From the NCBI GenBank assembly GCA_021234155.1, contig JAJEKV010000006.1, forward strand, positions 11,619,317 to 11,683,316: 64,000 nt of DNA, given 5' to 3'. This document shows, piece by piece, positions 6,716 to 22,686 of the stretch. Position 1 is the stretch's first letter. Every line of letters starts with the position of its first letter. This stretch comes from Isoetes taiwanensis. Taxonomy: Eukaryota; Streptophyta; Lycopodiopsida; Isoetales; Isoetaceae. Both the position numbers and the translations under genes were made by a program. Below the pieces are notes generated by a model. It was not told the DNA's origin and made no database searches. It saw only the letters and a program-made list of their open reading frames with translations.

Positions 6716-6799
6716 GAGAGAGAGAGAGAGAGAGAGAGAGAGACATTGTAATGGGAATTACATATGTCTAACTACTAGAGAGAGAGAGAGAGAGAGATG
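6716..6799. repeat. Two (GA)n microsatellite tracts at the 3' end of LINE-B
   Basis: Perfect GA dinucleotide runs at about 6716-6742 and 6776-6797, separated by some 33 bases. Read on the minus strand they are (TC)n tracts directly downstream of the LINE-B 3' tail. Confidence 0.95.
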
Positions 6800-6815
6800 A
6801 AGTGAAGTGTATTAA

Positions 6816-6846
6816 GTCTTTGGGAGGCCTCAAAGGCCTAAAAGAC
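6816..6846 (-). other. 3'-terminal hairpin of LINE-B
   Basis: GTCTTT pairs with AAAGAC across an inner AGGCCT / AGGCCT pair, followed on the minus strand by TTAATACACTTCACTTCA and then (TC)n. The same arrangement recurs at LINE-C (11616-11644) and in weaker form at LINE-E (22402-22412), so it is probably the RNA end recognised by the element's RT. Confidence 0.6.
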
Positions 6847-9401
6847 AACCAAAATTTTTACACAATATCATAAAAGAGTAGATGAGTTTCGTAGTCCTCA
6901 TCTAACTCATCGCCTCACTCAACATATCTTCATCATCTAAGATACTATTTAATCTTTTTCAAACAATTCTCTACATCTCAAGAATTCTAATAAGTATTCC
7001 CCAATCTTATCTCCCTTCCATATTGAAGAAGGTAATGAAGATCTTTTAGCTTGAACCCCATGTCGCGCCCTCAAAGAATGATATGCACTACAACGGCAAT
7101 GTGTGATCTTCATCTTCTATTTGTTCTTCTCCACAAATCTTGCAATATCTCTCTGCCTCTAGGAACAATATGCCCCCATCTCCCGCCCCACCCCCGCATG
7201 ATGTGAACTTAGACTCTAATCCTCCCTATTGCATGTCTTTTTCTTTTTATGGAGATATTTTCCCTCGTAGATATTTCGCCATTTCCAAGCCGTGGTTCAT
7301 GTTTTGCCTGTACATAATCATCTTTGTTTTAGGTTGAGACCACATCTTCTTATATACCTTATCAAAAATCCATTGTCTCAAATTATCCTTTATGAGAAGG
7401 GCATCCCCGCCAATCAATATCCCATTTCTTTAACCACTTAATCACATCCCGAACCATCCTTTATCCTTACTACCCAAAAGAGCTCTATGAGGAAGTCGTA
7501 GGTTATCCATGGTCACACCTTTTTCAAGTATCTAATGCATCCGACCAATGCTTCTCCTTCTAAAGGCATAAGCCCACATTCCGTCAACATCATCTCATAA
7601 GGGGTTTGAGCTTTTACACCTAATTCAAGGCGTATGAACTTTTTCAAGATCTGCTCCAAATCACCCCATAGTCCCTGTGGAAGGATGGGCCCCCATATCT
7701 CACTCCCATATAGTGCTACACTCGACAAGTGACACAAAAGTTTCGCTTGAGCCACCAAGACCATAAGTGAGCTTCCCCGCACAAACTTTGCATAGCATAA
7801 AGAGCCCTATGGCTTCCATCAATTCTCTGCTGGATACATGTATTCCATCTATGGTTTCGCGGAAAAATCAGTCCTAAATACTTATATGAATCACAAGTAC
7901 TCACCGCTTTTCTTTGTATTGAAATGAGCACTCTTGTTTAAGCCGCACCTACCGCCATGATATTTGTCTTCTAGGTTCACCTCGCATTCCCAAAGATCAC
8001 AAAAGTGGGCTAATCCATCCAAATGTTTCGCATGGAGTCCGGTGATCGAGCAAAAAATGACCACGCCATCAAGATACATCGCAGAGTTGCACTACATAAC
8101 CATGAATATCCGGCCCCTTCGACAATCATATGTAGCCAGCCTCAAGACCGCCAATAAATAATCCAAACAGTAGGTGACATTGGGCAGCCTTGCTTGACCC
8201 CAATGTTACTATCAATATATTCTCGATTTTCTATAGAAAGAGGAAAGGAAAGTCAGATAGTACCTTTTCATATAGCACTTGCACCGCTGCTCGTAATTGC
8301 TCGAACTCCCAAATTTTATCTAATATGTCCCATAGTCGAGGTCTAGGCACTTTATCGAAGGCTTTTCAAATCTACAAAGGCTACATAAGCAGTTTCTTGG
8401 TCCCCTTCACTCGTCAAATATAGATTTGAGCACCGTGAGATGATCTATCGTGGATCTTCCAAAATTCTAAAAGACGCCTGTTTTCGCATCTTTTGTGATT
8501 GATCTCCGCCCATGTACTTATTCTCTTTCCTCCAAAGATGGATGCCAAAGAACTTTGTTAACAATCCGGGCTACCAATATTGTTCTATAGTTATTAATAT
8601 CACCCACGCACCTCCTTTATGTACGTGTATCACCCGGCTTACTCGCCACTCCGCTGGCATTCCCTCGCTTATTGCTTTTGTGAACGTATCAGCAATGATT
8701 GATGGAGTTTTGGCCCCGCCCATTTCTCAGATGCTCGCACAAAGGCCTTGAATATCCTTTGCCTTTACCATTTGCTAGTCGTGATATGCCATCACCACTT
8801 CTTCACAAATTAACAAATTTAAGCCGATTATGTCAATAGAGCTAAGTATCCCGCCTCAATGATGATAAAGGTTGTGTACATGCTTCCAAAGGACATCCGG
8901 ACTAGAGGGAACTCCCTTTTCGCTTTTACGCAATGTGTTCCGTGTTTTTAGGATCGATAGGTAGCTATTGCATAGAAACTCTTGCTTATGATAGATAAAT
9001 CGCCTTTTCTTTTGCCTAAGTATCTTCCCTCGTAAGCTTTTTCTATATTGTTCTCTAGCCACCCCATCACTACTCCTCCATTTAGATTTTGCTTTTTACA
9101 AGCGTAATCATACCATGCATTACATGGTAGCCCTTTCATACTTCGCTTGGAGGTAAAACCTCAGAAGCGGTCCCCTCGATAGTGTGTCACATAATTGCTT
9201 GCTAGCCATTGACAAGTCTCAGGTTCCATTTAATGGTTGTCGATCTTTGCTCCAAATTTTAGCCTCGATAGCATTCTTTCAAACTAGGCCCGAGGTAATA
9301 TTTGGGTCAGCATGATATTCTCTCGCTTTGCACTCGGGTGCATTGACAAAGAATGGTTAGTTTCAATGGACAATGGTCTCATTCCAACCGCTTCTCCTAT
9401 C
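6847..9401 (-). pseudogene. LINE-B ORF2, reverse-transcriptase and C-terminal part (broken)
   Basis: This continues the ORF2 that starts at 10163. On the minus strand I see the linker (KGLPCNAWYDYACK near 9139-9098), RT blocks (FDKVPRPRLWDIL near 8350, GVKQGCPMSP near 8200), the catalytic block near 8079, the thumb region (YKYLGLIFP near 7880) and SVALYGSEIWGP near 7715. A finger-like segment with CKIC and a following H and C lies near 7120-7150, and an acidic C-terminal tail runs to about 6847. Stops and frameshifts interrupt it throughout. The catalytic YADD box reads YLDG here, so two of its four residues are changed and this copy could not be active. The frames fit one original ORF of roughly 1,100 codons with its endonuclease part; that length is an estimate. 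Confidence 0.8.
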
Positions 9402-10163
9402 TCAAAAATCTATTACTTGATGTAACGTAGATCTCGCCATTATAACATAATCAACAATGCTTCTGGATCTACATGTGGTTCTTTCCGTCCCTGGAAATCT
9501 GGCCAAACCATTACATATAATCATATTAGTACTACAACATAATGTTAACAAAAACCGACCTGTTTTAGTAATGATGTGATCTTGTGAGTATCTATTCCAA
9601 CCATTTGCCGCTAATTCGACATTGTCCATTTGTTCTAACCAAAGCAGATCATGCATGTCTATATAAACTGCTGCCTGTTTTTCACCTGTTCGGCCATTAA
9701 AGTCTCCAGCTAAAATCACTTCTCCCTTATTTTGAAAATCCATAATGTCTTGTTCAATCCCAAAGAAAGGATCGTCCTGTGAGGCTTCAGTTTTATTATA
9801 AACTTTTTGATGTCTCGGGGCAAAGTAACAAATGGCCATGTAATATACTGCTTTTGAACCATTTATTTCCAACCACATATATTGGCCGTTTTTATCATGT
9901 TTAATTCCTGTCACAATTTCTCTATATCTTGTTCGTACATAACATGCCAGTCCACCATTACCAATATCTGTTGCTCCAAATCTGTTACTTCTAACTGAAT
10001 AAATTAAATCAAACTCAGGTATACTAGGTAGAGCATATAACTCATGTTCTTTGGTCTCCAGGAAGCATATCATATCTATATCTGTTAAGATTTCCTGCAT
10101 CGTAATTACTTTTTCTATTGTCAGTCTATTAATGTTCCATATGATTATGCTGAGACCTCCCAC
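9402..10163 (-). CDS. LINE-B ORF2, APE-type endonuclease domain (open, 253 codons)
   Basis: N-terminal part of ORF2, an apurinic-endonuclease-like nuclease that nicks the target DNA to prime reverse transcription. The start Met at 10163 lies 30 bases after the ORF1 stop. Family residues are visible: the Asn in IIWNINRL (about residue 11), the Glu in FLETKE (about residue 36), Asp and Asn in LAGDFNGRTG (about residue 155), and the block SIVDYVIM (about residue 236). The frame ends shortly after that block, before the expected SDH motif, so it is truncated by a stop or frameshift. The next frame downstream continues the element. It is open for 253 codons while the RT part is ruined, so this is a relatively young but dead copy. 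Confidence 0.8.
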   Translation of the reverse strand: MGGLSIIIWNINRLTIEKVITMQEILTDIDMICFLETKEHELYALPSIPEFDLIYSVRSNRFGATDIGNGGLACYVRTRYREIVTGIKHDKNGQYMWLEINGSKAVYYMAICYFAPRHQKVYNKTEASQDDPFFGIEQDIMDFQNKGEVILAGDFNGRTGEKQAAVYIDMHDLLWLEQMDNVELAANGWNRYSQDHIITKTGRFLLTLCCSTNMIICNGLARFPGTERTTCRSRSIVDYVIMARSTLHQVIDF

Positions 10164-21755: not shown

Positions 21756-22224
21756 TGACCCTTCAAGTTAAATCTTTTCTGTAACACCTTCATCCGATCT
21801 TCTCTTCCATGGAATCGACAATCACATTTCGGTTTCTCCTCTTCTTTTCCTACCTCGGTATGCTTCAGCGATGGCCACATATAGCTCAAGACTGCTTAGT
21901 GAATATATTATTCACTTCTGTTGATATTCTCATCAACGCCTCGAATACCAGCAATCTCGAGGTTCAGAGCACGCTTGGCCCTCTCTTTTGCTGCTCTAGA
22001 ACATTATTCATAATGATGATTCATTTTTCCACTATATCTTTCCAAGATTCAAGGCCCTTCCCATCTCTGTTCCTCGACATTGTCTTTCTTATGTTTCGTG
22101 ATTTCTACTCTCTCTTAATTCCCGGTTTTCAGCTTTCAACCTGCCAAGGCTCTAGATATATCCCCTGTTTCCTTTCAACCCCGACCAGAGTGTGTTTGAT
22201 ATATGCTTAAGGGTACTATATGCT
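21756..22224 (-). pseudogene. LINE-C ORF1, N-terminal portion beyond the DIRS-like insertion
   Basis: On the minus strand, RMKVLQKRFNLKG near 21805-21760 aligns with the TRLQVLKHKHNLKG block of LINE-B ORF1, directly upstream of the residues found at 15060. Further in, RALNLEIAGIRGVDENINR near 21960 aligns with the RMLNLRIVGLPEKENE block. Positions 22000-22200 hold a charged, coiled-coil-like stretch read in mixed frames. The copy ends at the (AG)n tract (22225), earlier than LINE-B would, so LINE-C is 5' truncated or lost its leader. Confidence 0.75.
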
Positions 22225-22374
22225 AGAGAGAGAGAGAGAGAGAGAGAGAGAGAGAGAGAGAGAGAGAGAGAGAGAGAGAGAGAGAGAGAGAGAGAGAGAG
22301 AGAGAGAGAGAGAGAGAGAGAGAGAGAGAGAGAGAGAGAGAGAGAGAGAGAGAGAGAGAGAGAGAGAGAGAGAG
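22225..22374. repeat. Perfect (AG)75 microsatellite
   Basis: About 150 bases of uninterrupted AG. It lies between the LINE-C 5' end and the LINE-E 3' tail. Its length and purity suggest recent expansion or a polymorphic locus. Confidence 0.97.
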
Positions 22375-22425
22375 GTGAAATGTATTATTCCCCGCCATCA
22401 AGTCTATGAGACGTCAAGAAAAAAA
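22375..22425 (-). mobile_element. LINE-E: 3' stub of another LINE of the same family
   Basis: The minus strand reads GTCTCATAGAC, then TTGATGG, then AATAATACATTTCACC and then (TC)n. This matches the 3' tails of LINE-B and LINE-C. Only about 50 bases are recognisable; beyond that no LINE sequence is seen, so the insertion was very short. Confidence 0.6.
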
Positions 22426-22686
22426 CACTTTGAAAATCGTGAAAGGACCATTGCTCAACTAGTTAAACATCATTCAACTGGGTTGCGTAATGTTATGAAT
22501 ACACATTTAAGATGTTCCATACCTAGTGCATGCTCTAAATTTTTGGCACCATATAACTTAAGTTATTACACCTTCAAGTCTGCCTCGGACTTTGAGGAAG
22601 TTATTCCTGACGTCTCTACTAAGGTTCCCTCTCTTGCAAATTCAGATGAAGAACTTCTTGAGAAGGACGTCCCCCTTGATATTTAA
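22376..22686 (+). CDS. Open frame of about 90-100 codons, unrecognised
   Basis: A plus-strand frame entered from the AG tract; without the repeat it reads from about 22420 to a stop at 22684. It ends in an acidic, Ser/Val-rich segment (DFEEVIPDVSTKVPSLANSD). I do not recognise a family. It could be the C-terminal exon of a decayed gene or transposon protein. The first third overlaps the LINE-E stub on the opposite strand. Confidence 0.3.

Follow-up and report, generated by a model that had tools for sequence, protein, structure and literature searches.

Kibi, a long interspersed element (LINE) of the animal Tx1 clade, takes (TC)n microsatellites as its target. Mino, of the R1 clade, inserts into AC repeats (PMC3124438). 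Target-specific LINEs of the R1 clade use an APE-type endonuclease; the NeSL-related Togen of fish is (TG)n-specific and some HERO families are microsatellite-specific, the NeSL and HERO clades both encoding a restriction-like endonuclease (PMC4640811). Here we analyse a stretch of 64,000 nucleotides (nt) of the genome of the lycophyte Isoetes taiwanensis (contig JAJEKV010000006.1, positions 11,619,317 to 11,683,316; hereafter the window), which carries on its minus strand the element LINE-B and the remains of two others, LINE-C and LINE-E, all ending at (TC)n tracts. We consider it very probable that a large and diverse family of non-long terminal repeat retrotransposons, to which LINE-B belongs, takes (TC)n microsatellites as its insertion sites and does so in a fixed orientation. 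Copies are flanked on both sides by oriented (TC)n, including at truncated 5′ junctions, lie in head-to-tail chains, share a conserved 3′ hairpin and differ in these respects from the poly(A) L1 elements of the same genome.

In sense order, the window presents a LINE-E tail remnant, (TC)75, LINE-C, 37 bp of (TC)n, LINE-B and 21 bp of (TC)n, which lie as follows (ORF, open reading frame).

6715..6743: further (TC)n tract, 33 bp past the one at 6777..6797
6777..6797, minus strand: (TC)n, 21 bp, directly 3′ of the LINE-B tail
6798..11554, minus strand: LINE-B, degenerate, about 4.76 kb from 5′ end to 3′ tail, delimited by ORF1/ORF2 homology and by (TC)n at both ends
6798..6846, minus strand: LINE-B 3′ tail with hairpin
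11555..11591: (TC)n, 37 bp, common to the LINE-C 3′ end and the LINE-B 5′ end
11592..15059, minus strand: LINE-C 3′ tail, ORF2 remnant and end of ORF1
22225..22374: (TC)75 between the presumed 5′ end of LINE-C and the LINE-E tail
22375..22412, minus strand: LINE-E, 3′ tail remnant only, about 40–60 bp

The three minus-strand tails end at 6798, 11592 and 22375, each then passing into (TC)n, and have in common a hairpin, GTCT..AG(G/A)CC....GG(C/T)CT..AGAC, followed by TAATA and TTCA-like repeats, a pattern weaker in LINE-E. Only five (TC/GA)n tracts in the window reach 12 bp; three of them are the LINE junctions and a fourth is that at 6715–6743. An earlier note on this DNA had described three tails of one kind running into (TC)n, and this was confirmed, with tracts at 6777–6797, 11555–11591 and 22225–22374. 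Its description of LINE-B as bounded by (TC)n at both ends was likewise correct: the element is complete in outline but degenerate, and its 5′ end adjoins the middle tract directly. Two further claims stood in part. LINE-E has the tail but is not recognisable as an element, since a protein homology search of the window found no LINE homology beside it. That the next LINE starts directly across the tract was seen for LINE-B; for LINE-C, which is split by a foreign insertion of ~6 kb, the 5′ boundary at 22224 is placed from the tract, because no protein match to the 5′ part (21.3–22.2 kb) was obtained at E 1e-3.

The genome assembly (1,658,258,908 bases, 1110 contigs) was searched with the LINE-B endonuclease (10,966 candidates, 149 scored, 49–100% identical) and with the ORF2 C-terminus (26,209 candidates, 151 matches reported), the candidate numbers being loose first-look figures and not copy counts. 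ORF2 frames of ~1100 codons are open in several scored copies, some of which are nearly intact. The 5′ junctions were read in 50 copies, namely the 30 best-scoring ones (L011–L040, of which L011 is LINE-B itself) and 20 chosen from lower in the list (L062–L081), with preference for long open frames and a few truncated-looking copies. Sense (TC)n of at least 12 bp was present upstream of the endonuclease in 25/30 and 16/20, that is, in 41 of the 50 copies, and antisense (GA)n of this length in 1/30 and 0/20 (1/50). The same test applied inside ORF2 as a control gave (TC)n in 1/30 and (GA)n in 0/30. By eye, the DNA upstream of the 5′ tract is another LINE tail in roughly 18 of the 41 copies and other DNA in the rest; L016 and L095 are examples of 5′ (TC)n with non-LINE DNA upstream. 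The proposal of the earlier note that the elements insert into pre-existing (TC)n is thus upheld by the frequency of the 5′ tract and by its presence at the 5′ junctions of truncated copies.

That truncated copies also begin at (TC)n argues that the tract is a target and not part of the element. Under the rule that LINE protein homology should begin no more than 40 nt from the tract and past residue 20, 16 rows qualified, of which two were dropped (L036 at 1808, internal; L099, break unclear). The remaining 14 start near (TC)n, with truncation points scattered over ORF1, endonuclease and reverse transcriptase (RT); the distance from tract to truncated start is 1–9 nt in 12 of them and 16 and 30 nt in the other two. 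A less biased sample, consisting of 19 intervals round the starts of open C-terminal frames, contained eight homology breaks, four at a TC or pyrimidine tract (L083; L089, ~10 bp; L090, TC then CCCT repeats; L095), three elsewhere and one unclear. Homology continued in ten of the remaining intervals (in L092 only from nt 42), and the L093 interval ended inside a tract.

On the 3′ side, (TC)n of at least 12 bp was found in 14 of 20 copies and (GA)n in none. The hairpin core of one tail type, GTCTNATAGACCTGRYGGTCT, has 963 exact matches genome-wide and its reversed-pattern control has 0. Among the forward matches, 297 of 465 run into (TC)5 after 15–45 nt, read as one count per tail (the reverse-strand figure, 1644, counts overlapping ends and was left unused), and none of the 963 runs into (GA)5. 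One hairpin is common to two tail types, and one of its stem pairs is G-C in one type and A-U in 11 of 25 rows; this paired change probably reflects one or few events. The visible tails of the family carry variable TTTCA/TTTC repeats and end in pyrimidine repeats or (TC)n, not in the poly(A) of ordinary plant L1s.

Since insertion splits a tract into two tracts on the same strand, same-strand neighbours are predicted. In the first 100 of 3170 places matching A/G(TC)10, consecutive (TC)n places 1–25 kb apart lie on the same strand in 32/32 pairs from 16 contigs, pairs within one contig not being independent; 11 of these pairs are spaced 4.4–5.8 kb. At distances above 25 kb the strand is shared in 5/14 pairs. 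Ordinary L1s of the same genome were used for comparison, their assignment as plant-type L1s resting on the zf-RVT domain (14,278 candidates, 150 scored). In 20 of them, 18 taken from the top of the list and two chosen for long frames, the 3′ intervals contained (TC)n in 0/20 and an A-run of at least 8 in 19/20, 18 of these at 354–417 bp. The (TC)n habit therefore belongs to the TC-associated family and not to the LINEs of this host in general.

By analogy with established LINE biology, we infer which strand is nicked and how priming by annealing, hairpin recognition and target renewal would proceed. The endonuclease would nick a (TC)n·(GA)n tract on its GA strand, which would then prime the copying, often incomplete, of an RNA that ends in pyrimidine repeats and is recognised by its conserved 3′ hairpin (target-primed reverse transcription). 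The new copy would then sit between the halves of the tract, both reading TC on its sense strand. Reverse transcription primed in this way on a nicked GA strand would explain the fixed orientation, the 5′ truncations and the presence of TC on both sides. Moreover, with (TC)n left at both ends, copies would be flanked by fresh targets and could build up head to tail.

Several observations weigh against such insertion. Nine of the 50 copies have no (TC)n of 12 bp in the upstream stretch read; possibly these have longer 5′ ends, later insertions or non-target insertions. Similarly, 168 of the 465 forward tails show no (TC)5 within 15–45 nt. The 14 truncated rows were found starting from tracts and document occurrence, not frequency, and in the less biased sample only 4/8 breaks are at a tract (L085, L096 and L098 are not, L099 is unclear). 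The hairpin rows (25 of 33) were taken with a pattern requiring GTCT and TAATA-like letters, and part of their conservation therefore comes from this selection. Furthermore, when every fifth of the 100 listed places was inspected (n=20), a recognisable LINE tail stood upstream of only three tracts (L103 and L113 by pattern, L104 by eye), an antisense LINE fragment lies 228 bp or more downstream of the tract in L102, and most other sampled tracts adjoin other repeats, some recurring, or unrecognised DNA. The same sample includes a tract followed by a truncated LINE body (L113) and three followed by sequence resembling a LINE 5′ end (L114, L118 and L119, by eye).

Among the other explanations, it seems improbable that the family has a loose specificity for pyrimidine-rich DNA, or for a kind of chromatin, in which (TC)n is merely abundant. 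CCCT or TTTC repeats at some junctions (L022, L023, L090) would agree with this, as would the other repeat families that also adjoin (TC)n, but strand orientation is strict (0/963 tails into GA) and the ordinary L1s of the same genome have (TC)n in 0/20. We give still less credence to (TC)n being an integral part of both element ends, for instance a 5′ promoter, that is carried rather than targeted; this too would yield (TC)n at both ends and same-strand neighbours, yet copies cut at differing points in ORF1, endonuclease and RT start directly after (TC)n. Least probable of all, and very nearly dismissed, is that (TC)n is only a 3′ tail from the element's own reverse transcription and the head-to-tail contacts are fortuitous: green-algal L1 families often end in non-A short repeats (8/15 families; PMC3747384) and the variable TTTCA/TTTC tail repeats suggest slippage, but oriented 5′ (TC)n in 41/50 copies, many upstream flanks that are not LINE tails (e.g. 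L016, L095) and truncated copies that start at (TC)n all contradict it. Chance was rejected as an explanation of the junctions in the window, the genome-wide tests speaking against it.

The coding features of LINE-B are the following.

7152–7448 and 7737–10166, minus strand: ORF2 protein homology
10173–10925, minus strand: ORF1 protein homology
9402..10169, minus strand: endonuclease domain (Exo_endo_phos) at the start of ORF2, Pfam PF03372, E 8.1e-6
10170..10172, minus strand: UAG codon, with ORF1 and ORF2 in the same frame on either side
10173..11150, minus strand: ORF1, L1 ORF1p type (phmmer and family profile), with one further stop near its end

With phmmer, LINE-B ORF1 matches mouse (E 0.0017) and human (E 0.0047) L1 ORF1p, and a profile built from 13 copies hits structures of L1 ORF1p (2ldy, E 5.3e-5; 2ykp, 1.2e-4; 2yko, 1.3e-4), positions 139–307 being those that match 2yko/2ykp. 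A clear Pfam family was not obtained for ORF1 (Transposase_22 in 1/13 members, E 0.014) and no zinc knuckle was listed among the 13 members. Judged from these sequence matches, ORF1 is of the L1 type, with a predicted coiled coil, RRM and C-terminal domain (type II). The earlier note had regarded an ORF1 of this type as unusual for a plant, in agreement with a review that assigns plant L1 to the RRM + CCHC arrangement (type I; PMC4120745), which is not the one found in the TC-associated family.

ORF2 has an APE-type endonuclease (PF03372, E 8.1e-6), as in the Tx1 clade, and an RVT_1 domain (E 2.6e-35; one copy, residues 254–1069); over these residues of that copy no further Pfam family, and thus no RNase H or zf-RVT, was found at E 0.01. 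The LINE-B endonuclease gave no match at E 0.01 in PDB, and in viral_contigs one pattern match from which no relative was confirmed. The RT scores higher with R2 (88 bits) than with human L1 (73 bits) in phmmer. A tree of 12 RT sequences (six of the TC-associated family, three zf-RVT L1s of the same genome, human L1 and two R2) joins the zf-RVT L1s with human L1 at 98.6/99 (SH-aLRT/UFBoot) and leaves the TC-associated family and R2 each apart; it is a small sample with long branches that contains no Tx1, R1, CR1 or L2 reference. In this long-branched tree the RT does not group with ordinary plant L1, a grouping that, according to the earlier note, would have weakened the Tx1 link. The suggestion of a plant counterpart of Tx1 was nonetheless not supported: the RT falls outside the group of plant L1s and human L1 in this small, Tx1-free tree, whereas Tx1 sits within the L1 clade according to a review (PMC3747384).

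ORF1 ends in TAG, with ORF2 in the same frame, in 13 of 17 copies with a long ORF1 frame; in the other four (L011, that is LINE-B, L023, L032 and L035) the frame is shifted or a stop comes earlier. A pattern allowing any codon at this site matched 43 places, with TAG in 38 and TAA and TGA in none; the other five (TAT, GAA twice, GGA and AAT) we take to be chance matches, the reversed control having given 12. By eye, ATAGG and GGGAGG round the UAG are invariant in 14/14 aligned copies, and 12 of these lack any in-frame ATG from the UAG to the endonuclease core, the exceptions being L024 and L025. No conserved RNA structure was predicted after the UAG. The simplest reading of the sequences is that an ORF1–ORF2 product would be made by UAG readthrough; re-initiation of ORF2 at another codon is a possible alternative. 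A narrow search of the literature found no case of readthrough in a LINE.

Several families of repeats occupy (TC)n tracts. One repeat, whose ends resemble TGCGTCGGCCACATGCTTG..CAAGCATGTGGCCGACGCA or are variants of these, adjoins (TC)n in L105, L027, L038, L090, L066, L107 and L108 (by eye), and is perhaps a miniature inverted-repeat transposable element that uses the same tracts. Another repeat, with a ATGTGCATATGCTCAAAAAATGGATTTGAGGCAAAA-like end, leads into (TC)n in L012, L018, L072, L073, L076, L077 and L112. After the tract in L112 and L081 comes sequence with boxes resembling a transfer RNA (tRNA) promoter (by eye), perhaps a short interspersed element; ARAGORN found no tRNA genes beside the tracts at five loci.

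Elsewhere in the window, the insertion that splits LINE-C is located as follows.

15091..21257, plus strand: insertion within LINE-C, limits approximate

Stretches near its ends are repeated 6046 bp apart, and its ORF at 20379–20882 encodes what we take to be a tyrosine-recombinase-like protein; Pfam gave no match. The insertion is perhaps DIRS-like. Further LINE ORF2 fragments of related type lie at 27039–27782 (plus strand) and 142–525 (minus strand), and by eye no (TC)n tail follows the 27-kb fragment up to 28500. A GA-rich GGAG/GAGAGG array, not pure (GA)n, occupies 26379–26497.

In the literature searched, outside which most subscription journals lay, we found no microsatellite-targeting LINE from plants. 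The available parts of the I. taiwanensis genome paper (PMC8566536) do not discuss LINE targeting, and those of the I. sinensis paper (PMC10541799) name LINEs only in a figure legend. Microsatellite targeting by LINEs is already known from animals; what is new is the plant host, the scale, the chains, the contrast within one genome and the UAG. Taken jointly, and tentatively, these could represent an undescribed LINE lineage, outside the group of plant and vertebrate L1s, with (TC)n as a target that it renews and spreads itself at each insertion, building self-extending head-to-tail arrays on which other mobile elements also land, and with an ORF1–ORF2 protein made by UAG readthrough; so much at once we regard as possible rather than probable. 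The thousands of candidate places of this family in a lycophyte, next to ordinary poly(A) L1s, allow the evolution of target choice to be tested. The system also bears on the part that a mobile element plays in making and shaping microsatellites, and on whether such targets are safe harbours.

Compared with described systems, the family shares with Kibi the habit of inserting into (TC)n, and differs from it in its plant host, in the in-frame UAG between the ORFs and in an RT that, in our small tree, lies outside the group of plant L1s and human L1. Mino is likewise a LINE with a microsatellite target, AC in its case and TC here. Togen and the HERO families concerned are also microsatellite-specific, but theirs is a restriction-like endonuclease, whereas that of the TC-associated family is of the APE type. 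Finally, the ordinary poly(A) zf-RVT L1s are endonuclease–RT LINEs in the same host; unlike the TC-associated family, they have a poly(A)-like 3′ end without (TC)n and an RT that joins human L1.

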